The notes under the pieces: model-generated | Seen by the model: only the letters and a program-made list of their open reading frames with translations | Database searches by the model: none | What the model was told of the DNA's origin: nothing | Source: Nocardia mangyaensis | GTDB lineage: Bacteria > Actinomycetota > Actinomycetes > Mycobacteriales > Mycobacteriaceae | Direction: 5' to 3' | DNA length: 64,000 bases | Assembly (NCBI RefSeq): GCF_001886715.1 | Contig: NZ_CP018082.1 | Location: 1,426,001-1,490,000, forward strand | Shown here: positions 10,596-50,591 of the stretch, piece after piece | Position numbering within the stretch: position 1 is the stretch's first letter | How the letters are laid out: every line of letters begins with the position of its first letter | Translations under genes and position numbers: made by a program

Positions 10596-10663
10596 GTTTC
10601 ACATAATGAACGCCCCGGGTGGGTAAAGTCAACGCGATATCGCCAGCTCTCAGGAGGCGTTTG
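10596..10663. promoter_or_regulatory. Divergent azlC / XRE-cupin promoter region with inverted repeat
   Basis: The 68-bp gap holds both promoters. The inverted repeat TTCA-cataa-TGAA sits at about 10599-10611, abutting the azlC start, and the region is AT-richer than its flanks. The AGGAGG ribosome site of the regulator is at 10652-10657. The repeat is a candidate operator for the XRE-cupin protein; this is inference from position. Confidence 0.4.
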
Positions 10664-11233
10664 ATGGACCGGCAGGACCCGGTCGCCGGACCACCCCAAG
10701 CGGTGATCGCGGCGTCGCTGCGGCGCGAACGCGCTCGCGCAGGCTTGTCGCTGACCGAGGTCGCCAGCCGTGCCGGAGTCGCGAAATCCACACTGTCGCA
10801 ACTGGAATCGGGCACCGGTAACCCCAGCTTGGAAACCCTCTGGGCGCTGTGTGTCGCCCTGGAGATGCCGTTCTCCAAGCTGCTCGACCCGCCCCGCGCC
10901 AACGTGCAGGTGATCCGCGCGGACGAGGGTGCACCGGTGCCTGCGGCCGATGCGGACTATCGAGTGACTTTGCTCGCAGCGGGGCAATCGCACACTCGCT
11001 GCGACGTCTACCGCATCGCCGCCGAGCCAGGCCACACCCGCCGCTCGGACCCGCACACACCCGGCGTGGTCGAACACGTCGTCCTTGCGGCGGGGCACGC
11101 GATGGCGGGCCCCGCCGACGAGCCCGTCGAAATGCGTCCCGGTGATTACATCCGCTACCTGGGCGATCTCCCACACATCTTCGAGGCCCTCGAACCGGGT
11201 ACCTGGGCCACGATGGTCATCGAGAGCGCTTAG
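10664..11233 (+). CDS. XRE-family regulator with C-terminal cupin domain
   Basis: ATG 10664 follows a strong AGGAGG and gives 189 residues. Residues about 10-65 form an XRE helix-turn-helix (LRRERARAGLSLTEVASRAGVAKSTLSQ is its core), and residues 75-185 form a single cupin barrel with VEHVVLAAGHA and RPGDYIRY. This architecture usually controls an adjacent exporter or amine/amino-acid gene, with the cupin sensing a small ligand. It is divergent from azlCD, so exporter control is the likely role. Its 3' end overlaps the convergent HNH gene by 4 bp. Confidence 0.85.
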   Translation: MDRQDPVAGPPQAVIAASLRRERARAGLSLTEVASRAGVAKSTLSQLESGTGNPSLETLWALCVALEMPFSKLLDPPRANVQVIRADEGAPVPAADADYRVTLLAAGQSHTRCDVYRIAAEPGHTRRSDPHTPGVVEHVVLAAGHAMAGPADEPVEMRPGDYIRYLGDLPHIFEALEPGTWATMVIESA

Positions 11234-17599: not shown

Positions 17600-18007
17600 A
17601 TGGGCGAGCACAACGGGTTGCGGGTGATTCCGGGCGGACGCGACGAGCGCGCGCGACCCGAGCCGCTGTGGCGGGAAGCGTTGGGCGACCGGCTGCGCGC
17701 CCTGCGGCTCGAACAACGGTCCACCCTGGTCGACACCGCGGGCCGCGCCGGAATCTCGCCGCAATATCTGTCCGAGGTCGAGCGCGGTCGCAAGGAACCT
17801 TCCAGCGAGATGATCGCCGCACTCGCTGGTGCGCTCGGCACCTCGCTGGGCGAGCTGGTCGCGCAGGTGGCCGAGTCCATGCGTCGCCACGCGGTCGCTC
17901 CCGCTCGAGCTGTGGTCCTCGGCGGCGACCGTCGGGTTGTCGCACCCTCGCGGCCGGTGGACGTCCCGACCATGTCCGCACCGACGGTGATGTCGCTGGC
18001 GGCGTGA
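17600..18007 (+). CDS. ClgR/PopR-like XRE regulator with C-terminal Leu-Ala-Ala
   Basis: The 135-residue protein starts at ATG 17600. After a basic arm, residues about 26-85 are an XRE helix-turn-helix with SPQYLSEVERGRKEPSSE, the recognition-helix signature of the ClgR family that activates clp genes in actinobacteria. The sequence ends VMSLAA. Free C-terminal Ala-Ala residues are what target ClgR and PopR for ClpP degradation in Streptomyces and relatives. It is therefore probably an unstable activator of Clp genes. The usual clgR neighbourhood (recA, pspA) is absent, so this looks like a second paralogue. A CGC-centred ClgR-like motif (CGCCGACAGCA) lies at 17546-17556. A clpP pair starts 5.9 kb away. 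Confidence 0.75.
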   Translation: MGEHNGLRVIPGGRDERARPEPLWREALGDRLRALRLEQRSTLVDTAGRAGISPQYLSEVERGRKEPSSEMIAALAGALGTSLGELVAQVAESMRRHAVAPARAVVLGGDRRVVAPSRPVDVPTMSAPTVMSLAA

Positions 18008-18268
18008 GGTCTGATGGTGCGCTGATTCGGTCACCGAACGCGCGCTGAGGTGCTTTGGCGTGCGGCGGGTTCGATTCCGGACCGTGAGTTACGGACGACC
18101 TGACCTTCGCCGAGGCGATCCGTCTTGTCCTGGGGGCGCGGGCTGAGGATTCGTCGACATCGTGGGCAGAATTCGACTGTGCGGCGTGCCTGTCGGTGCC
18201 GAGTAGGTCGCGGGGGAGGGTCGGGTTCGAGGTGGCCGGGCGATGGTGTTGGTGCCGAGGCGGGGGAA
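18008..18268. other. Non-coding gap between regulator and TetR gene
   Basis: This 261-bp stretch lies between two genes that converge on it. It holds no ORF with a start and ribosome site, and no strong hairpin is seen. A tRNA T-loop-like GGGTTCGATTCC at about 18067-18078 has no matching cloverleaf. Confidence 0.4.
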
Positions 18269-18868
18269 TCAGCTCACCCGGACGGAATCGATCAGTCGTC
18301 GCAGCAGGTCGACGATGGCGCTGACCGGGAGTTCGGGATCGATCGCGCGCTGGACGCCGAGGCCGATGCCGAGCGAGAGCAGTTGCAGGGCAGCGTCTTC
18401 GGCCGACATCGGCAGGTCGATGCCCATCTCGTCGGCCTGGACCTGGATCAGTGAGGCAAGCATCGCGGTGAGCGTGCGCCTGCGGTCTGCCAGCTCGGCG
18501 CGGATCTCCGGCATGTGCCTTGTGCTGGTGGCGAATTCGACTTCCAGCGCCGTCCACCCCATATCGCCGATGTTCTCGTCGGCCCAGCGCGCGAAGCCGG
18601 CGATGCGCTCGTCCATGGTGTCGTGCGCCATCACCGCGTCGGTGAGGGACTCCGCGCGTTCGACGTGCACGACGTCGATCACGGCGAGGCCCAGCTCGTG
18701 CTTGGTGGCGAAGTTGGAGTACACCGCGCCCTTGGAGAACCCGGCCGTCGCTGCCACCTTCTCCAGTGAGGTCACGTTGTAGCCGTCGGCCAGGAACAGT
18801 CGCTTGGCTGTGTCGACCAGGCGCTCACGGGTGAGTGCGTGCGACTCCTTGCGCGTCATCCTGGCCAT
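18269..18868 (-). CDS. TetR-family repressor of the patatin/monooxygenase cluster
   Basis: The 199-residue protein has an N-terminal TetR domain (LVDTAKRLFLADGYNVTSLEKVAATAG is its core, near 17-43, followed by the KGAVYSNFATKHEL turn). The all-helical ligand domain contains TWALEVEFATSTRHMPE-like segments. The ATG at 18868 has no ribosome site; the transcript may be leaderless or use the ATG nine bases on. It is divergent from the patatin gene with only 60 bp between the starts, so it should repress that operon and itself. The inducer is probably a ketone, lipid or steroid-like compound, judged from the neighbours. Confidence 0.85.
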   Translation of the reverse strand: MARMTRKESHALTRERLVDTAKRLFLADGYNVTSLEKVAATAGFSKGAVYSNFATKHELGLAVIDVVHVERAESLTDAVMAHDTMDERIAGFARWADENIGDMGWTALEVEFATSTRHMPEIRAELADRRRTLTAMLASLIQVQADEMGIDLPMSAEDAALQLLSLGIGLGVQRAIDPELPVSAIVDLLRRLIDSVRVS

Positions 18869-18928
18869 GGGCAGGAGTTTAGCAAAACGGGCTACCGTTG
18901 GAATTCGAATACCGTTAGTATCCGAGTC
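18869..18928. promoter_or_regulatory. TetR operator/divergent promoter region with direct repeat
   Basis: The direct repeat TACCGTT occurs at 18893-18899 and 18910-18916 and flanks the perfect 8-bp palindrome ATTCGAAT (18903-18910). The whole lies midway between the two divergent starts, the expected place for a TetR operator. The region is AT-rich compared with its flanks. Confidence 0.5.
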
Positions 18929-19966
18929 ATGACTACACGACGTGGCGTAGCCATCGGCTGCGGCGGCACCCTGGGTTTCGCCTGGACCGCTGTCGCCCTC
19001 GATGCCGTCGAACGCGCCCTCGGCTGGGACCTGCGCACGGCCGAGGTCCTGGTCGGCACCTCCGCCGGAGCCGAACTCGTCGGCGCGCTCGGCTCCGGTC
19101 GCAGCCCGGCCGACCTCCTCGCCGCCCTCGACGGCGCACCGGGCGCCGACCCCGTCCTGGCCCGTCATGTGTCGGTCGACCCGGGCAAGATCCCTCCGCT
19201 GCCCGGCATCGGACTGCCGGGACTCGGCCTGATCGGCGCCGGTGTGCGCGCTGTCTCTGCTTACACCGCGCTGGCCGGATTCCTCCCGCGCGGTCGCGGC
19301 GACGCGAGTTGGCTGCGCGAATACGGCGCGGCCATCGCCCCGAACGGCTGGGTCGATCACCCCAATACCTGGTTGGTCGCCGCCGATGCGGCCACGGGCA
19401 AGCGAGTCGCCTTCGGCGCGAACCCGCCGCTCCACGCCGGCGCCACGGCGGATGACATCGGCGCAAAGGCTGCCACGGCAGGCGGTGGTGCGGTGGTCGG
19501 GTCACCGGCCCCGGGTACGCCTGCGGTCGACCTCGGCGAGGCGATCGCCGCGTCGTGGGCGATCCCCGGTTGGTTCCCGCCGGTGCGGATCGGTGGACGC
19601 GGCTACCTCGACGGCGGTGCGGTGTCGTCGGTGTCAGCGGATCTGCTGGTGTCGCTGGCGCTGGACGAAGTGGTGATCGTGGCGCCGATGACCTCCGAAG
19701 GTGGTGCACCGGCGACGGGTCTGAACCGGGTCGAACGACTGCTTCGTGCGCAGATGACCCGCGGGCTCGATCGCGAGGTGGCGCTGTTGCGCGCGGCGGG
19801 CACGCGAGTGATCCGGGTCGAGCCGGGCCAGGAAGATCTCGCCGCGATGGGACCGAACTTCATGGATTTCGCCCGTCGGGCAAGCACACTCGCCACTGCC
19901 CGGCGGACCGCGCCCCGTCGTGTCGCGGCCGCGATTCGCGTATCGAACGAAGGAGAGAACAGATGA
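18929..19966 (+). CDS. Patatin-like phospholipase
   Basis: The 345-residue protein has the patatin catalytic set: glycine-rich oxyanion run GCGGTLGF (about 11-18), nucleophile elbow GTSAG with the active Ser, and the dyad Asp in YLDGGA. It is probably a cytoplasmic lipid acyl hydrolase. It starts the operon patatin-BVMO-(small ORF)-SDR and overlaps the monooxygenase by ATGA. Similar lipase/monooxygenase/dehydrogenase sets occur in the mymA region of mycobacteria, where they act on fatty acids of the envelope. An alternative start 90 bp upstream lies inside the divergent repressor and is rejected. Confidence 0.85.
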   Translation: MTTRRGVAIGCGGTLGFAWTAVALDAVERALGWDLRTAEVLVGTSAGAELVGALGSGRSPADLLAALDGAPGADPVLARHVSVDPGKIPPLPGIGLPGLGLIGAGVRAVSAYTALAGFLPRGRGDASWLREYGAAIAPNGWVDHPNTWLVAADAATGKRVAFGANPPLHAGATADDIGAKAATAGGGAVVGSPAPGTPAVDLGEAIAASWAIPGWFPPVRIGGRGYLDGGAVSSVSADLLVSLALDEVVIVAPMTSEGGAPATGLNRVERLLRAQMTRGLDREVALLRAAGTRVIRVEPGQEDLAAMGPNFMDFARRASTLATARRTAPRRVAAAIRVSNEGENR

Positions 19967-21441
19967 GCCCGCAGCACGAGGTGGTCGTGATCGGAGCCGG
20001 GATCTCCGGCATCTGCGCCGCGATCCAACTGGCCGAGGCCGGCGTCGACGACGTCGTGCTGGTGGACAAGGCGGACACCTTCGGCGGCACCTGGCGCGCC
20101 AACACCTATCCGGGTTGCGCCTGTGATGTGCCGTCGGGTCTGTACTCGTTCTCCTTCGCCCCGAACAGCGAGTGGTCGCGCCTGTTCGCGACCCAGCCCG
20201 AGATCCTCGACTACGTCGACCGGGTGGCTCGCGAGCACGGGCTCGCCGAACGCACCCGCTTCGGCGTCGAGGTCACCGGCGCGCGCTGGGACGACGACGC
20301 CCGCCGGTGGCGGCTCGACACCAGCGACGGTGAGCTGACCGCCCGTTTCGTGGTCTCGGCCGCGGGCCCGTGGAACGAACCACGCTTCCCCGACATCCCC
20401 GGCCTGGCCGAGTTCCCCGGCGAGGTGTTCCATTCCGCGCGCTGGAACCACGACTACGACCTGCGCGGCAAGCGCGTCGCCGTGGTCGGCACGGGCGCCT
20501 CGGCGGTGCAGTTCGTGCCGGAGATCCAGCGTGAGGTCGCCGCGCTGCATCTGTTCCAGCGCACCGCGCAGTGGGTGCTGCCGAAACCCGACCACCCCGT
20601 GCCTGGCGTCGAGAAGCGGGTGATGCGCCGACTCCCGTTCGCGCACAAGGCATTGCGATCGGTGGAGTACGCGTTGATGGAGGGTCTCGGTGTCGCGTTC
20701 CGCAATCCGCGACCGCTCATGCAGGCGGTGCAGACGGTCGGTTCTGCCTACCTGCGCGCGGTCGTCCGAGATCCGACGCTGCGCGCCAAGCTGACTCCGG
20801 ACTACTTGCTCGGCTGCAAGCGGATCCTGTTCTCCAACAGCTATCTCCAGTCGCTCACCAAGCCCAACGTGGCGGTGCACGCCACCGCGGTCAGCGAGTT
20901 CCGCGGCAATACCGTGCTCGGCGCCGACGGGTCCGCCGCCGAGGTCGATGCCGTCATCCTCGGCACCGGCTTCCACATCCTCGACACTCCGCTGGCCGAC
21001 ATCGTGCGCGGCGCCGATGGCCGGACCATGGCGCAGCATTGGCAGGGCTCACCCGAGGCCTACCTGGGCACCGTCACCACCGGGTTCCCGAACGCGTTCA
21101 CCGTGCTCGGCCCCAGCCTCGGCACCGGCCATTCCTCGGCCTTCGCGATTCTGGAGGCGCAGGTGGCCTACCTGGTGTCGGCGATCGCGAGCGCCCGCCG
21201 CGAGAGCTGGGCGGTGCTCGACGTGCGATCGCAGGTGCAGGCCGGCTACGTCGACCAGGTGCAGGACGCGCTGGCCGGGACCGTCTACAACGCGGGCGGC
21301 TGCCAGAGCTACTACCTGGATGCCAACGGCCGCAACAGTTTCAGCTGGCCCTGGTCGACGGGGGAGTTGACCCGCCGGGTGAGCGCTTTCGACCCCGCCG
21401 ACTTCACCATCACCCACGACGACGTCGCGATCCCGGCATGA
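19963..21441 (+). CDS. Flavin-containing Baeyer-Villiger-type monooxygenase
   Basis: The ATG overlaps the patatin stop by 4 bp and has AAGGAG upstream. The 492-residue protein has FAD-binding GAGISG, the FGGTWRANTYPG loop, the Baeyer-Villiger fingerprint F-P-G-E-V-F-H-S-A-R-W, and NADPH-binding GTGASA. It should insert oxygen next to a ketone to give an ester or lactone, which the patatin esterase or others could open. CDVPS and the C-terminal WPWSTGEL are also typical. It is cytoplasmic. Substrate is unknown; a long-chain or cyclic ketone is likely. Confidence 0.92.
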   Translation: MSPQHEVVVIGAGISGICAAIQLAEAGVDDVVLVDKADTFGGTWRANTYPGCACDVPSGLYSFSFAPNSEWSRLFATQPEILDYVDRVAREHGLAERTRFGVEVTGARWDDDARRWRLDTSDGELTARFVVSAAGPWNEPRFPDIPGLAEFPGEVFHSARWNHDYDLRGKRVAVVGTGASAVQFVPEIQREVAALHLFQRTAQWVLPKPDHPVPGVEKRVMRRLPFAHKALRSVEYALMEGLGVAFRNPRPLMQAVQTVGSAYLRAVVRDPTLRAKLTPDYLLGCKRILFSNSYLQSLTKPNVAVHATAVSEFRGNTVLGADGSAAEVDAVILGTGFHILDTPLADIVRGADGRTMAQHWQGSPEAYLGTVTTGFPNAFTVLGPSLGTGHSSAFAILEAQVAYLVSAIASARRESWAVLDVRSQVQAGYVDQVQDALAGTVYNAGGCQSYYLDANGRNSFSWPWSTGELTRRVSAFDPADFTITHDDVAIPA

Positions 21442-21530
21442 GTGACAGACAACCCGAAACCGCTCCCGAGCGGGTCCGCGAGACGACCACCCGCGCGCCC
21501 GAGCGAACCCAGCGAAAGGACACAGCATGA
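21438..21530 (+). CDS. Candidate 30-codon ORF coupled by ATGA at both ends
   Basis: The frame opens at ATG 21438, overlapping the monooxygenase stop (ATGA), and closes at TGA 21530, overlapping the reductase ATG (ATGA). It encodes 30 residues, MSDRQPETAPERV followed by an Arg/Thr-rich tail. It is hydrophilic, with 6 Arg and 5 Glu, and has no recognised motif. There is no good ribosome site of its own. It may serve to carry ribosomes from one gene to the next, be a real micropeptide, or be chance. Confidence 0.4.
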   Translation: MSDRQPETAPERVRETTTRAPERTQRKDTA

Positions 21531-22363
21531 GCTACCCGAGGATCGATCTCGACGGTGCGCTGATCGCCATCACCGGCGCCGCCCGCGGCATCGGCCTGGC
21601 CACCGCGCGAGCCTTCGTCGAGGCGGGTGCGCATGTCGCCCTCGGTGACCTCGACGAGTCGCTGGCCGTGCAGGCTGCCGCCGAACTCGGAGACCGCGCT
21701 GTCGGCCACGTTCTCGACGTCACCGACAAGGCTTCCTACGCGGCGTTTCTCGACGCGGCCGCCCGGTGGCGCGGCCGCCCGCTCGACGTGCTGGTCAACA
21801 ACGCGGGCGTGATGCCCAACGGCCCGTTCCTCGACCAGCCCGACCGGATCGACCAGCTCACCATGGACGTCAACGTCTATGGCGTCATCCACGGCATGCG
21901 ACTGGCCCTGCCCGGCATGGTCGAGCGCGGTTACGGACACGTCGTGAACGTCGCCTCGCTGGCGGGCAAATTCCCGCTCAAGGGGCTGGCGGTCTACAAC
22001 GCGAGCAAGTTCGCCGTGGTCGGGCTGACCGCGGCGACCCGGCTCGAGCTCGACACCACCGGGGTCAGCCTGAGCGCGGTGCTGCCCTCGGCGGTGCACA
22101 CCGAGCTCAGCTCCGGCATCGACTACGGCATCCTGCCCGCCGTCGAACCCGAGGACATCGCCGCCGCGGTGGTGCGCACGGTCAAGACCCGAGCCGCCGA
22201 AACCGCCGTACCCGGCTATGTCGGGCTGGCGGCCAACGCCTCCGGACTGGTGCCGGAGACGGTGATGCGCCTGCTGCGCAAGGCAGCGCACGACGACGCG
22301 GCGATCACCCGCGTCGACGACGATGTCCGCCGCGTCTACCTGGACCGTATCGAAAAGCAGTGA
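21527..22363 (+). CDS. Short-chain dehydrogenase/reductase of the monooxygenase operon
   Basis: AAAGGA precedes the ATG at 21527. The 278-residue classical SDR has nucleotide-binding TGAARGIG, NNAG, catalytic Ser in NVASLAG and YNASK. An extended C-terminus of about 30 residues follows. It should interconvert an alcohol and ketone, giving the ketone substrate of the upstream Baeyer-Villiger enzyme. Similar SDRs partner monooxygenases in mycobacterial mymA-type clusters (sadH position). The gene ends the operon. Confidence 0.88.
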   Translation: MSYPRIDLDGALIAITGAARGIGLATARAFVEAGAHVALGDLDESLAVQAAAELGDRAVGHVLDVTDKASYAAFLDAAARWRGRPLDVLVNNAGVMPNGPFLDQPDRIDQLTMDVNVYGVIHGMRLALPGMVERGYGHVVNVASLAGKFPLKGLAVYNASKFAVVGLTAATRLELDTTGVSLSAVLPSAVHTELSSGIDYGILPAVEPEDIAAAVVRTVKTRAAETAVPGYVGLAANASGLVPETVMRLLRKAAHDDAAITRVDDDVRRVYLDRIEKQ

Positions 22364-22645
22364 ACGCCCGCCGATCGCGAGCGCCGTTGTCACGAAGATG
22401 AATCCGCGACCGCGGGGCCATGGTGGCACTGATGGTGGCCCGGGACAGTGGCGCTGGTCGCTGCCCAGCCACGGCCTGGCCACCGTGACGCCACCTGCGG
22501 CTGGGCCTCGCTATACCCGGGCACGCCCGAGACGCCGCGCTCTTGAACTGGACCAGTGATCACCAGGCGGTGGTGGTGTTGCTTCTCGGCCGTTGCTTGC
22601 GTGAGTGCCTGGTGATCAGCCGTCCATTGCCGCGGAGTGTGCGGG
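22364..22645. other. Non-coding gap carrying hairpin repeat copy 1
   Basis: This 282-bp gap separates the convergent SDR and clpP operons. It contains no plausible gene. Its right half holds the first copy of the 62-bp hairpin repeat listed separately. Confidence 0.5.
22557..22618. repeat. 62-bp hairpin repeat, copy 1 (left of the clpP pair)
   Basis: Arms TGATCACCAGGC (22557-22568) and GCCTGGTGATCA (22607-22618) are perfect inverted repeats around a 38-nt loop. The loop shares TCGGCCG-n-TGCT with copy 2 at the same spacing, and GGACC precedes both copies by 2 bp. It may also terminate one of the convergent operons. The pair of copies brackets the accessory clpP genes. Confidence 0.7.
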
Positions 22646-23236
22646 TTACTCGCGTTCGTGGAGAACCTGGTCGACGAGGCCGTAGTCGAGGGCGGTGTCG
22701 GCGGTGAACACGCGGTCGCGGTCGGTGTCGCGGCGCAGGGTTTCCGGGGTCTGGCCGGTGTGCTTGGACAGGATCGCTTCGATGGCGGCGCGCATGCGGA
22801 CGATTTCGTCGGCCTGGAGGATCAGGTCGGGGATGGTGCCCTGGCCGCGAGTTGCCGGCTGGTGCAGGACGATTCGGGTATGAGGAAGCATGGCGCGGTG
22901 GCCGGGGGTGCCGCCGGCGAGGAGGACGGCGCCGACGGCGATGGCCTGGCCGACGCAGGTGGTGTGGACGGGGGCCTTGATGAAGCGCATCGTGTCGTAG
23001 ACGGCGAGCATGGCGGACAGGTCGCCGCCCTCGCAGTTGATGTAGAGGCTGATGGCCTGGCCGGGGCTGTCGGATTCGAGGTGTAGCAGTTGCGCGATGA
23101 GCGCGTTGGCCACCCCGGAGTCGATCGGTGTGCCCAGGTAGACGATGCGTTCGCTCAGCAGGTGCGAGTAGATGTCAGTGATCCGCTCACCACCGCGATG
23201 CTGGGACACGACGTTGGGAATCGTGTAGCTGGTCAT
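22646..23236 (-). CDS. ClpP-family protein lacking the catalytic serine (ClpR-like)
   Basis: The 196-residue protein is clearly of the ClpP fold, with IVYLGTPID, HTTCVGQA, LPHTRIVLHQPA and YGLVD. The active-site serine, which follows GQAA in paralogues, is Ala100 (GQAIAVG). The oxyanion loop NSPGGSV is NCEGGDL. His125 and Asp174 of the triad remain. It should assemble but not cleave, like cyanobacterial and plastid ClpR, and so shape the ring of its catalytic partner. The ATG overlaps the partner's stop by ATGA, so the two are made in step. The altered residues are supported by readable codons, not a frameshift. Confidence 0.9.
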   Translation of the reverse strand: MTSYTIPNVVSQHRGGERITDIYSHLLSERIVYLGTPIDSGVANALIAQLLHLESDSPGQAISLYINCEGGDLSAMLAVYDTMRFIKAPVHTTCVGQAIAVGAVLLAGGTPGHRAMLPHTRIVLHQPATRGQGTIPDLILQADEIVRMRAAIEAILSKHTGQTPETLRRDTDRDRVFTADTALDYGLVDQVLHERE

Positions 23237-23895
23237 GGGGTTTCCGCCTCTCCGCGCTCTGTGTTCCGTGATCGGTGGGTTCCGGAGGTGTTCATGCCGA
23301 TGCCGATGCGATGACGGTTCGGCACCACCTGGTCGAAGGATTCGACGATGTGGTCGATGAACCCGTACTCGAGTGCCTGGGTCGCGGTGAACCAGCGGTC
23401 GTGCAGCGAGTCCTCGTAGACGCGGTCGAAGGGCTGGCCGGTGTCTGCGGCGATCAGGCCGAGCACGGTGTCGACGGTGTAGCGCAGATCGTCGGCCTGC
23501 ACCTCGACCTCCACCGCGCTGCCGCCGATCCCCGCCGAACCCTGGTGCATGAGGATGCGCGCGTGCGGCAGGGCGAACCGGCGGCCCGGTGTACCGGAAG
23601 AGAGCAGGAATTGCCCAGCGCTGCAAGCCAATCCGAGTGCGAGAGTGGAGACCTCGCACGGGACGAGGCGCATCACGTCGCGGATCGCCAGCATGGAGGG
23701 CACCGAGCCGCCGGGGGAGTGGATCCACAGCGAGACCGGCGCCTCGGGACTCTGCGCGGCCAGGGTCAGCAGCTGGGTGATGAGCAGCGTGCCGTTGTCG
23801 TCGTCGAGCGCCCCGTCCAGCACGAGGATCCGGCGAGCGAACAGCTGCTCCCGCGCCCGCCAGCTGAACATCGGAGTCTTGTCGTCGTGTGCCAT
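23233..23895 (-). CDS. Accessory catalytic ClpP protease subunit
   Basis: The 220-residue protein keeps Ser92 (GLACSAGQF), His117 (LMHQGSAG) and Asp166 (HDRWF), the complete triad, plus the HSPGGSV oxyanion loop. It resembles the ClpP1-type sequence at 47.8 kb. It lacks an obvious propeptide and has a C-terminal tail of about 30 residues (MNTSGTHRSRNT region) not seen in the housekeeping copies. Start at ATG 23895, with GGTGGAG close upstream; a GTG 27 bp earlier is possible. With the downstream serine-less subunit it forms an operon comparable to clpP3-clpP4 of Streptomyces. No Clp ATPase is adjacent, so it must borrow ClpX or ClpC. Confidence 0.9.
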   Translation of the reverse strand: MAHDDKTPMFSWRAREQLFARRILVLDGALDDDNGTLLITQLLTLAAQSPEAPVSLWIHSPGGSVPSMLAIRDVMRLVPCEVSTLALGLACSAGQFLLSSGTPGRRFALPHARILMHQGSAGIGGSAVEVEVQADDLRYTVDTVLGLIAADTGQPFDRVYEDSLHDRWFTATQALEYGFIDHIVESFDQVVPNRHRIGIGMNTSGTHRSRNTERGEAETP

Positions 23896-23930: not shown

Positions 23931-23966
23931 GCTCACACTGCTGTCAGCAGATCCGCTCACAGCAGA
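23931..23966. promoter_or_regulatory. PopR-box-like palindrome upstream of the clpP pair
   Basis: CTGCTGTCAGCAG (23938-23950) is a perfect odd-centred palindrome. With flanks it reads aCTGCT-3N-AGCAGA, matching 9 of 12 positions of the Streptomyces PopR box TCTGCC-3N-GGCAGA as I remember it. A further AGCAGA half-site follows at 23961-23966, and GCTCACA is repeated at 23931 and 23955. The site lies 43-55 bp upstream of the clpP start, right for an activator. Confidence 0.55.
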
Positions 23967-24053
23967 CCAGCCCCCGCCCCGCTATCCGGGCAGCCGTTCG
24001 GGCCCGGTGTCACCCGGCACAGCAGGAGCCCGCCGTGGCTCGGCTCGGACCGT

Positions 24054-24115
24054 TGATCACCAGGCTGCGATGGCGCAGGTAATCGGCCGATGCTCGCCTG
24101 GGAGCCGGGCGATCA
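24054..24115. repeat. 62-bp hairpin repeat, copy 2 (right of the clpP pair)
   Basis: TGATCACCAGGC (24054-24065) is identical to the left arm of copy 1. TCGGCCG-n-TGCT occurs at the same distance without gaps, and the right arm GCCGGGCGATCA (24104-24115) matches 10 of 12 positions. GGACC again lies 2 bp before the left arm. The two copies are direct repeats about 1.5 kb apart around the clpP operon. Confidence 0.65.
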
Positions 24116-47697: not shown

Positions 47698-47760
47698 TTA
47701 GTGTTTGTGACGACGAACCGTATGGCCGTAGCAATCGGTGAGAAGAGAAGGCAGGTATCC

Positions 47761-48360
47761 GTGACAATCAACCAGGCAGGGGTCATGACAGCCGCTACTG
47801 CTGGTCTCAACCTCAGTGATTCGGTGTACGAGCGTCTCCTGCGTGAGCGCATCATCTTCTTGGGAACCCAGGTCGACGACGAAATCGCGAACAAGATCTG
47901 CGCGCAGATCCTGCTGCTCTCGGCCGAGGACGCGACCAAAGACATCGCGCTCTACATCAACTCACCCGGTGGCTCGGTCACCGCGGGCATGGCGATCTAC
48001 GACACGATGCAGTTCGCCGAGTGCGACATCAAGACCGTCGCGATGGGTCTGGCGGCGTCGATGGGTCAGTTCCTGCTCACCGCGGGCACCAAGGGCAAGC
48101 GTTTCGCGCTGCCGCACACCCGGATCATGATGCACCAGCCCTCGGCGGGCATCGGCGGTTCGGCCGCCGACATCGCGATCATGGCCGAGCAGTTCGCCCA
48201 CACCAAGCGTGAGCTCAACGAGCTGCAGTCGCTGCACACCGGCAAGTCGGTGGAGCAGGTGACCGAGGACGCGGACCGCGACCGCTGGTTCACGGCGAAG
48301 GAAGCCCTCGAATACGGCTTCATCGACCACGTGGTCAGCCACGCGAACCAGGCGAAGTAA
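47761..48360 (+). CDS. clpP1: ATP-dependent Clp protease proteolytic subunit 1
   Basis: Start GTG 47761, with AAGGCAGG upstream, gives 199 residues; ATG 47785 is an alternative. The triad is Ser100 (GLAASMGQF), His125 (MMHQPSAG) and Asp174 (DRDRWF), and the oxyanion loop NSPGGSV is intact. The first residues are a short propeptide removed on assembly. In mycobacteria ClpP1 and ClpP2 form one mixed tetradecamer, essential for growth and driven by ClpX or ClpC1. It lies 44 bp ahead of clpP2. Confidence 0.96.
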
Positions 48361-48404
48361 GCGCAGGCGCGCCCCACACACTCGAGACAAGCTTGGAGAC
48401 AAAG

Positions 48405-49070
48405 ATGGCCAATCTGTACGACCCGCGCGGCGCCGCCCAAGGTGGCGCACCCGCCCCCGCTCAGTCGCGCTACATCCTGCCGCAGTTCACCGAGCAGACT
48501 TCGTTCGGCGTCAAGACCTCCGACCCGTACAACAAGCTGTTCGAGGAGCGCATCATCTTCCTGGGCAACCAGGTCGATGATGTCTCGGCCAACGACATCA
48601 TGGCGCAGCTGCTGGTGCTGGAATCGCAGGATCCTGACCGCGATATCACCATGTACATCAACTCGCCCGGTGGCTCGTTCACCGCGCTGATGGCGATCTA
48701 CGACACCATGCAGTACGTGCGCCCCGACGTGGTGACGGTGTGCCTGGGCCAGGCGGCCTCGGCCGCGGCGGTGCTGCTGGCCGCCGGTGCGCCCGGTAAG
48801 CGCGCCGCGCTGCCCAACGCGCGCATCCTGATCCACCAGCCGTCCTCGGGCGGCGTGCAGGGCCAGGTGTCCGACCTCGAGATCGCCGCGGCCGAGATCG
48901 AGCGGATGCGTCGCCTGATGGAGGTCACCATCGCGCGGCACACCGGCAAGTCCGAGGAGCAGGTCCGCAAGGACACCGATCGCGACAAGATCCTGACCGC
49001 CGACGAGGCCAAGGAATACGGCATCGTCGACCAGGTCTTCGACTACCGGAAGCTCAGCGGTCAGAAGTGA
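48405..49070 (+). CDS. clpP2: ATP-dependent Clp protease proteolytic subunit 2
   Basis: GGAG precedes the ATG at 48405. The 221-residue protein has Ser119 (GQAASAAA), His144 (LIHQPSSG), Asp194 (DRDKIL) and NSPGGSF, so it is catalytically complete. A longer N-terminal arm (residues 1-40) includes a probable propeptide. The C-terminal YRKLSGQK is the usual ClpP2 end, which carries the ATPase-docking face. It is the second gene of a two-gene operon closed by a strong terminator. Confidence 0.96.
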
Positions 49071-49076
49071 CACGCC

Positions 49077-49116
49077 CGGGCCCGTTGCCCGATCTGGGCG
49101 GCGGGCCCGTCTTTTT
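49077..49116 (+). terminator. Rho-independent terminator of clpP1-clpP2
   Basis: CGGGCCCG-TT-GCCC pairs with GGGC-GG-CGGGCCCG (two T-G wobbles) around GATCT and is followed by TCTTTTT. It lies 7 bp after the clpP2 stop. It is the most canonical terminator in the window and shows that clpX has its own promoter. Confidence 0.85.
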
Positions 49117-49310
49117 CCCGCGGGTCGGCTCACAATGGTGAGAACCCGCACAACCCTGAACAGAAACATGCGCGAGTTGTCGACCCTTCTCGCGCACACC
49201 AGGTACGGTCGACTCAGGGACCATTGCTCTGATTGACGGCACCGAAACGTATTTCCGGCCCAATCGGGGGACGACGGTCGCACTCGGACAAGGAAGTAGG
49301 GACCTACGAG
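49117..49310. promoter_or_regulatory. clpX promoter region with GCGCGAG/CTCGCGC inverted repeat
   Basis: GCGCGAG (49170-49176) and CTCGCGC (49189-49195) are perfect 7-bp inverted repeats with a 12-bp spacer, about 115 bp before clpX. TTGACG near 49232 may be a -35 element. AAGGAAG lies about 15 bp before the ATG. Confidence 0.4.
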
Positions 49311-50591
49311 ATGGCGCGCATCGGAGACGGCGGCGATCTGCTGAAGTGCTCGTTCTGCGGAAAGAGCCAGAAGCAGGTCAAGAAGCTCATTGCGGGCCCC
49401 GGGGTCTATATCTGCGACGAGTGCATCGACCTGTGCAACGAGATCATCGAGGAAGAGCTGGCCGAGTCGAGTGAGGTCAAACTCGACGAGCTGCCCAAGC
49501 CTTCCGAGATCCGGGACTTCCTGGAGAACTACGTCATCGGCCAGGACACGGCCAAGCGCACGCTCGCGGTGGCGGTCTACAACCACTACAAGCGCATCCA
49601 GGCCGGTGACAAGGGCCGCGACAGCCGCGGCGAGGTCGTCGAGCTGATGAAGTCGAACATCCTGATGCTCGGCCCCACCGGCTGCGGCAAGACCTACCTC
49701 GCGCAGACGTTGGCCAAGATGCTGAACGTGCCGTTCGCCATCGCCGACGCCACCGCGCTCACCGAGGCGGGTTATGTCGGCGAGGATGTCGAGAACATCC
49801 TGCTGAAGCTGATCCAGGCCGCCGACTACGACGTCAAGCGCGCCGAGACCGGCATCATCTACATCGATGAGGTCGACAAGATCGCCCGCAAGAGCGAGAA
49901 CCCGTCGATCACCCGCGATGTCTCGGGCGAAGGTGTGCAGCAGGCGCTGCTGAAGATCCTGGAGGGCACGCAGGCGAGTGTGCCGCCGCAGGGCGGTCGC
50001 AAGCACCCGCACCAGGAGTTCATCCAGATCGACACCACCAACGTGCTGTTCATCGTCGCGGGCGCCTTCGCGGGCCTGGAGAAGATCATCTCCGATCGCA
50101 CCGGCCACCGCGGCATCGGCTTCGGCGCCGAGGTCCGCTCCAAGGCCGAGGTCGACACCGATGACCACTTCGCCGACGTGATGCCCGAGGATCTGATCAA
50201 GTTCGGGCTGATCCCCGAGTTCATCGGCCGCCTGCCGATCGTCGCCTCGGTGACGAACCTGGACAAGGAATCGTTGGTCAAGATCCTCTCCGAGCCGAAG
50301 AACGCACTGGTCAAGCAGTACGTGCGACTGTTCGAGATGGACGGCGTCGACCTCGAGTTCACCCCCGATGCCCTCGAAGCGGTCGCCGACCAGGCGATCC
50401 TGCGCGGCACCGGCGCCCGCGGCCTGCGCGCCATCATGGAGGAAGTCCTGCTCCCGGTGATGTACGACATCCCCGGCCGCGACGACGTCGCCAAGGTGGT
50501 CGTGAACGGTGACACCGTCAGCGACAACGTCCTGCCGACCATCGTCCCCCGCAAGGCCCAGCGCACCGAGCGCCGCGAGAAGTCGGCCTAG
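49311..50591 (+). CDS. clpX: ClpX ATPase, unfoldase of the Clp protease
   Basis: The 426-residue protein has the N-terminal zinc module with C13, C16, C35 and C38, Walker A GPTGCGKT at 121-128, Walker [10 protein letters not shown], the pore loop GYVG, the ClpP-docking loop GIGFGAE, and sensor-2 GARGLRAI. The length matches mycobacterial ClpX. It unfolds tagged substrates and feeds them to ClpP1P2, and it is the nearest candidate to serve the accessory ClpP pair. It is transcribed alone. Confidence 0.97.

Follow-up and report, generated by a model that had tools for sequence, protein, structure and literature searches.

A predicted PopR-type accessory ClpP3-ClpP4 core in Nocardia mangyaensis with a catalytically incomplete P4 subunit

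We analyzed a 64,000-nucleotide stretch of the Nocardia mangyaensis genome (the window) and found that a pair of adjacent ClpP genes on its minus strand (22646-23895) is, as judged by sequence comparison, a real and conserved feature, namely an accessory ClpP3P4 core of the PopR type whose P4 subunit is catalytically incomplete. The explanation that we regard as probable is a PopR-controlled accessory core that is off while ClpP1P2 works. In this core, the ClpP1-like P3 would supply the catalytic sites and do the cutting, and the ClpP2-like P4, its catalysis lost, would serve as the structural ring and as the docking face for the shared Clp ATPases. As long as ClpP1P2 works, PopR would be degraded via its C-terminal AA and clpP3-clpP4 would stay off; when ClpP1P2 is blocked, PopR would build up, bind a double-palindrome operator and thereby turn the backup core on. 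The proposed division, with P3 cutting and P4 docking, is well supported by comparison with related sequences. The features on which this reading is based are the following:

22646..23236, minus strand: clpP4-like gene (P4, 196 aa), with Ala100 at the nucleophile position, His125 and Asp174 retained, NCEGGD as the oxyanion loop, and the axial-loop segment still present
23233..23895, minus strand: clpP3-like gene (P3, 220 aa), with Ser92/His117/Asp166 intact, the N-terminal axial-loop segment absent, the C-terminal tail PNRHRIGIG, and a fold closest to mycobacterial ClpP1
23233..23236, minus strand: ATGA shared by the stop codon of P3 and the start codon of P4, from the reading frames
23938..23965: predicted PopR-type operator, with the minus-strand sequence CTGCTGTGAGCGG-AT-CTGCTGACAGCAG, which precedes the start of P3 by about 70 nt
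17600..18007, plus strand: popR-like gene for an XRE/Cro-C1 helix-turn-helix regulator (135 aa, ending SLAA), a ClgR relative below the ClgR cut-off
18008..22645: other genes, about 4.6 kb, between popR and clpP4, from the reading frames
47722..50591, plus strand: housekeeping clpP1, clpP2 and clpX, the comparison set

P3 is the upstream and P4 the downstream gene of the pair. Their overlap by ATGA, pointed out in the sequence-only reading, is present at 23233-23236, and an overlap of four bases is found at 72 of the 139 loci of the window's type; equal synthesis of P3 and P4 through this overlap is plausible. The same reading had taken the pair for a second Clp system beside the usual clpP1, clpP2 and clpX, and this holds: the housekeeping set lies at about 47.7-50.6 kb, and a search of the whole genome (7.31 Mb, one contig; E <= 1e-5) returned four ClpP matches, arranged as two pairs. 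The accessory genes are thus two adjacent ClpP genes apart from clpP1P2, one on the P1 side and one on the P2 side. Both products carry the CLP_protease domain (Pfam PF00574; 223.8 bits for P4 and 172.4 bits for P3) and have the ClpP fold, with Foldseek TM values of 0.92-0.95 for the AlphaFold2 model of P4 (pLDDT 87.9) and of 0.73-0.79, by query length, for P3. Translation and alignment also uphold what had been read from the codons at the active sites. In P3 the triad is complete, with Ser92 sitting in GLACSAGQ and His117 and Asp166 aligning with the catalytic His and Asp. P4 has Ala100 and an Asp in its oxyanion loop, with His125 and Asp174 kept; its oxyanion stretch is NCEGGDL versus NSPGGS in both housekeeping paralogues, so that Cys, Glu and Asp replace Ser, Pro and Ser. 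With Ala100 and NCEGGD, P4 has neither the full Ser-His-Asp triad nor the SPGG oxyanion loop of an active ClpP peptidase. The genes of 18008..22645 are, as we take it from sequence motifs, a TetR-type regulator, a patatin-like gene, a flavin monooxygenase and a short-chain dehydrogenase.

Accessory pairs were collected at several taxonomic depths. In the genus search, a ClpP match was obtained in 148 of 148 genomes (E <= 1e-20); by best score, 132 genomes have a close P4 (>= 74% identity), 12 have solely a more distant pair (57-59%), and four (one of them 78% and another 88% complete) have no accessory P4 above the housekeeping level. The twelve Nocardia genomes with the more distant pair in place of the window's type (L239-L250; 57-59% to the window's P4) have a promoter without the double operator; in 11 of them the triad of P4 is complete, and the other one (L248) has Ala. 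Further loci came from the best 80 of 560 named-genome matches (Mycolicibacterium, Leifsonia, Microbacterium, Granulicoccus, Saccharopolyspora, Amycolatopsis, Pseudonocardia and others), and sampling at the phylum and class levels supplied more. Together with 80 additional stretches, they cover part of the 117 class genomes that scored as P4-type. Altogether 254 adjacent ClpP pairs were analyzed, and after removal of duplicates and of 24 housekeeping pairs there were 204 distinct P3 and 201 distinct P4 sequences. Three genomes first scored as P4 (G668, G544 and G547) turned out to have housekeeping pairs at these loci and were reassigned, one partial P3 (L084) was set aside, and 15 loci with one ClpP gene, most of them at contig ends or with a lone ClpP2 gene, were kept outside the pair counts. 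A fused protein (P0003) was excluded from the count of residue states. It comes from a 3 kb metagenome contig and has 331 residues in two joined ClpP4-like stretches, the first shortened and both with GQAAS; it is either a deletion fusion or an assembly error.

The active-site states of the two subunits differ sharply. The P3 triad is intact in all 203 complete distinct sequences, and the one remaining sequence of the 204 is incomplete, so none is altered. The P4 triad is altered in 158 of the 201 distinct sequences and intact in 43; the latter implies that a dead P4 is no requirement of the system. In housekeeping pairs both triads are intact (24/24 distinct P1 and 24/24 distinct P2). Ser is replaced by Ala (106), Gly (17), Glu (10), Trp (4) or Phe (1) among the 201 P4, His by Gly (11), Asp (1) or Gln (1), and Asp by Asn, His, Ser, Thr, Glu or Ala, with double changes in some sequences. 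The P4 genomes with the His-to-Gly change all belong to one family. Of the altered P4, 150 of 158 lack Ser or His and eight differ solely at Asp; in these eight the activity may survive the change, by analogy with Listeria ClpP1, which has an atypical triad with Asn at the Asp position and can be active in a mixed complex (PMC9765437).

The sequence-only reading had proposed examining orthologues for Ala100 and had named a Ser at this position as the result that would speak against it. Among 116 distinct P4 of the window's type (those with an N-x-E-G-G-D-like loop), the nucleophile position holds Ala in 102, Gly in 12 and Ser in just 2, Ser thus being absent in 114/116, and His and Asp are kept in 116/116. 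The nucleophile is likewise absent in 118 of the 119 scored rows among the matches listed in the protein search (109 Ala, 4 Gly, 4 Met, 1 Glu and 1 Ser). These two counts rule out a sequencing error or a strain-specific change. The two Ser-bearing sequences of the EGGD type (L060:4001-4588 and L107:4001-4582, with codons TCG and TCC), from N. jejuensis and one Microbacterium MAG, still have a changed oxyanion loop (NCEGGDL and NCSGGDP). Another variant, the P4 of Nocardia sp. CDC159 (L063 / P0055), has one extra residue in this loop (NCEGGNDL), together with GQAIGVGG. The median pairwise dN/dS is 0.150 for P4 and 0.138 for P3 (50 Nocardia sequences each), which indicates that P4 is under purifying selection, like P3, and the value of 0.150 rules out a pseudogene. 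P4 of the window's type is presumably catalytically inactive.

To place the altered states on a phylogeny, a likelihood tree of 67 P4/P2 sequences was built with the active-site columns removed. The split between accessory P4 and housekeeping P2 has a support of 100/99, as has that between P3 and P1 in the partner tree, whose main groups are the same as those of the P4 tree. Mapping the intact or altered state on the P4/P2 tree takes 9 changes (9-10 in bootstraps), at least 7 of them forced by well-supported branches; when the two Ser-bearing Nocardia-type rows are left out, the best tree requires 7. The parsimony count itself carries no direction of change, and we read the changes as losses because housekeeping P2 and the deepest accessory rows are intact. 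The P4 triad therefore appears to have been lost in separate lineages via different residues (Ser, His or Asp). The node joining most of the Ser-less P4 has a support of just 92/71, and the P4 of L149 sits on a long branch.

Comparison of upstream regions revealed a double palindrome of the form CYGCYNNNRGCRG-NN-CYGCYNNNRGCRG, at a distance of about 70 nt from the P3 start. It is present with at most one mismatch in 108 of the 118 distinct upstream regions of the window's type. Of the 88 other accessory pairs, 50 have it with at most two mismatches (11/11 of the Streptomyces family and 0/15 of family f93). It is absent (more than two mismatches) in the remaining 38 of these 88, which include the 15/15 of f93 and 13 of 14 non-typical pairs of the window's own family. 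None of 24 housekeeping upstream regions has it with two or fewer mismatches, and about 1% of shuffled upstream regions come within three mismatches. In the 7.3 Mb genome itself, 23938-23965 is the sole exact match to CYGCYNNNRGCRGNNCYGCYNNNRGCRG, and there are 5 sites with one mismatch versus 21 for a reversed control pattern. For the clpP3 promoter of S. lividans, a review quotes the PopR site as TCTGCC-3N-GGCGAATCTGCC-3N-GGCAGA (PMC9775585), and the Nocardia operator is of the same form as this quotation. A ClgR box was considered and ruled out: the ClgR site (CGC-N5-GCG; GTTCGC-5N-GCG; PMC3613350, PMC9775585) has a different form, and the double site is missing upstream of the housekeeping genes.

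The second element of a PopR system, a gene for a ClgR paralogue with a C-terminal AA, is also found. The popR-like product scores 68 bits against ClgR, for which the cut-off is 170; its putative identity as PopR is based on gene order, ClgR similarity and the AA tail. Relatives of popR were found in 58 of 393 class genomes (E <= 1e-18) and P4 in 117. Both are present in 56 genomes, P4 without a popR match in 61, popR without P4 in 2, and neither in 274; the 61 of 117 P4 genomes without a match at this E-value either have a popR that was missed or are truly without one. In all 54 genomes with both genes on one contig, popR is convergent and lies 3' of clpP4, at a distance of at most 1.5 kb in 53. 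When 280 loci were scanned, 192 had a popR relative, 180 of which end in AA (148 of 158 distinct sequences). The operator and the popR-like gene together identify the pair as a clpP3-clpP4 operon. In the window, popR is 4648 bases from clpP4, versus a maximum of 1463 in the other 53 genomes. Since popR is not found within the 4 kb examined in the close relatives N. neocaledoniensis, rhizosphaerihabitans, ignorata, alba and caishijiensis either (L034-L038), it was likely separated from clpP4 by an insertion or rearrangement in the clade that they form with the window's genome. A second helix-turn-helix regulator (10619-11233, 204 aa) shows weak ClgR similarity (36.6 bits) and has no AA tail.

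In S. lividans, ClpP1P2 degrades PopR, which keeps clpP3P4 silent; viability requires that one or the other operon functions (PMC9765437). By analogy, the same regulatory loop would operate in Nocardia. The Streptomyces lividans/coelicolor ClpP3-ClpP4/PopR system is likewise a two-gene operon with a ClpP1-like gene followed by a ClpP2-like gene, and it has the same operator form, an adjoining convergent popR-like gene with a C-terminal AA, and a P4 with a broken triad. The two differ in how the triad was broken. A protein search begun from one of the His-to-Gly P4 led to relatives named Streptomyces. Among the matches listed in it, these Streptomyces-named P4 relatives have lost His in 119/119 (118 Gly, 1 Ala) and kept Ser in 119/119, whereas the Nocardia P4 have lost Ser and the oxyanion loop. 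They differ also in the position of popR, which in the window's genome, unlike in Streptomyces, is 4.6 kb from clpP4. Conditional expression and acyldepsipeptide insensitivity are properties shown for Streptomyces only.

Which subunit receives the ATPase can be judged from the residues of the docking face. Among the printed alignment sequences, the axial-loop segment YTIPxV..GER is present in P4 and absent in P3. The position equivalent to E. coli Y62 (mature numbering; Y76 in PMC4416901) is Tyr in 201/201 P4 and Trp in the 115/115 readable P3 of the window's type. Position 26, as we assign it by E. coli numbering, is acidic in 200/201 P4 and mainly Arg, Gln or Lys in window-type P3. Against docking on P4, its remaining pocket residues differ from those of E. 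coli, position 90 being mostly Thr and 112 mostly Ala. Among solved structures, P4 has Thermus ClpP as its best single match by sequence, followed by others including M. tuberculosis ClpP2, and the closest relatives of P3 are mycobacterial ClpP1; by fold, Foldseek ranks 2-7 for P4 include M. tuberculosis ClpP1P2 chains, and the top matches of P3 are ClpP1 chains. In M. tuberculosis, ClpX and ClpC1 dock solely on ClpP2, whose N-loop is longer than that of ClpP1 (PMC4416901), and by analogy the ATPase would dock on P4. A Ser-to-Ala change in M. tuberculosis ClpP2 is described as harmless (PMC9067928), and in Streptomyces proteolysis comes from ClpP1 alone (PMC9765437). Either clpP1P2 or clpP3P4 is enough for S. 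lividans to live (PMC9765437), so a core with His-less relatives of P4 must still cut. The housekeeping ClpP1P2 of mycobacteria and streptomycetes has the layout proposed here, with one ring cutting and the other docking, P3 being nearest to ClpP1 and P4 being ClpP2-like; but it keeps both triads, whereas the division of labor in the accessory pair would be fixed by residue loss.

ClpR of cyanobacteria (with ClpP3) and of plastids shares a ring with active ClpP, and the sequence-only reading had expected such a mixed ring here, in which P3 and P4 would sit in one heptamer and P4 would dilute the active sites. P4, without its nucleophile, does share with ClpR a ClpP fold with an incomplete triad beside an active ClpP, and the two genes overlap and are co-inherited. 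ClpR comes from a different organism lineage; in the tree of P4 and P2 sequences, P4 groups with actinobacterial ClpP2-like ones. Mycobacterial ClpP1 and ClpP2 form two separate homoheptameric rings that are stacked, and because both sequence and fold ally P3 to ClpP1 and P4 to ClpP2, stacking of a P3 ring and a P4 ring is the likelier arrangement and probably sets the pair apart from ClpR. The two proteins presumably assemble with each other, probably as a stack of two rings. The mixed ring is not supported by these comparisons and seems unlikely, although the one sentence in print on a dead ClpP in a Nocardia calls it reminiscent of ClpR (PMC9067928). P4 might instead be no partner of P3 at all and act as a regulatory or poisoning subunit of the housekeeping ClpP1 or ClpP2, which would fit the ClpP2-like surface that it keeps and has a parallel in ClpP_ADEP, an accessory ClpP that takes the place of ClpP1 beside ClpP2 (PMC12607617); but P4 always adjoins an intact P3 in the 254 analysable loci and the main groups of the P3 and P4 trees agree, which makes this role quite improbable.

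The loss of the active site, in several lineages at that, could also mean that P4 is decaying or dispensable and has no function. A dN/dS as low as that of P3, the conservation of the axial-loop segment, Tyr62 and the handle region, and a gene order that is kept across families all argue against decay, and we give this reading very little weight. At the other extreme, P4 might still cut in an unusual way, its site being completed by some other residue or by one of the partner. The retention of His125 and Asp174 throughout the window-type P4 is odd for a dead site, and the atypical triad of Listeria ClpP1 is activated in a complex (PMC9765437). Against this, GQAIAVGA offers no candidate nucleophile at or beside position 100, the oxyanion loop is changed too, and Ser-to-Ala abolishes the activity of ClpP subunits (PMC9765437); of all the readings weighed, unusual catalysis is the one we find hardest to credit. 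The accessory core in which P3 would cut and P4 would dock thus remains the preferred reading.

An additional regularity concerns the C-terminal tail of P3, in which a Pro and a Gly (P192 and G198) are nearly invariant among accessory sequences. A hydrophobic-Gly-(Leu/Ile/Phe) tripeptide is found in 148 of 187 distinct P3 tails, versus a mean of 19.8 and a maximum of 31 in 200 shuffles; this pattern, wider than the docking tripeptide of the ATPases, was picked after inspection of the tails. A slightly wider one still matches 0/22 ClpP1, 1/22 ClpP2 and 3/173 P4 tails. Clp ATPases dock by (L/I/V)-G-(F/L) (PMC8745299), and this strict form occurs in 41 of 187 distinct P3 tails versus 5.6 by shuffling (maximum 12 in 200 shuffles); RIGIG of the window's P3 does not match it. 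In the AlphaFold2 model of P3, the tail has a pLDDT of 57-69 and its position is unresolved. In Pseudomonas aeruginosa ClpP2 (structure) and Chlamydia ClpP1 (model), the C-terminus covers the ATPase pocket (PMC9823225). These proteins also have no axial N-terminal loop and so resemble the role proposed here for the P3 tail, but their C-terminus is a mini-helix (PMC9823225) and the P3 tail has a hydrophobic-Gly-hydrophobic tripeptide. We tentatively suggest, as a possible but doubtful extension, a complementary loss: P4 would keep the docking face, its catalysis having been abandoned several times, and P3 would keep catalysis, with no axial loop and with a tail that imitates the ATPase tripeptide, plugs its own pockets, repels the ATPases and may hold the ring active as acyldepsipeptides do. 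If true, this would explain the acyldepsipeptide insensitivity of Streptomyces ClpP3P4.

Work on bacteria with several ClpPs has raised the question of why the second subunit retains an active site that is dispensable in mutants (S110A in M. tuberculosis ClpP2, S131A in Streptomyces). The accessory pairs appear to be a natural experiment on this question, in that separate lineages have apparently lost Ser, His or Asp from the ClpP2-side subunit and none of those examined from the ClpP1-side subunit. A division with cutting on one ring and docking on the other is directly testable in these natural proteins, and the pair would offer structural studies of one-sided Clp complexes a natural scaffold. 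As Clp is an antibiotic target, the PopR module would also flag actinomycetes with a conditional backup core. Within the open-licence papers searched, we found no account of the repeated one-sided loss, of a PopR operator and popR gene in Nocardia and its relatives, or of the conserved P3 tail.

On either side of the pair lies an intergenic palindromic repeat of about 80 bp (22545-22626 and 24047-24115). As a candidate operator of the pair it was dropped, since the repeat occurs at 30 places in the genome (30 matches listed at E <= 0.01, its own copy included). It resembles a REP-type repeat or a small mobile repeat of this genome.
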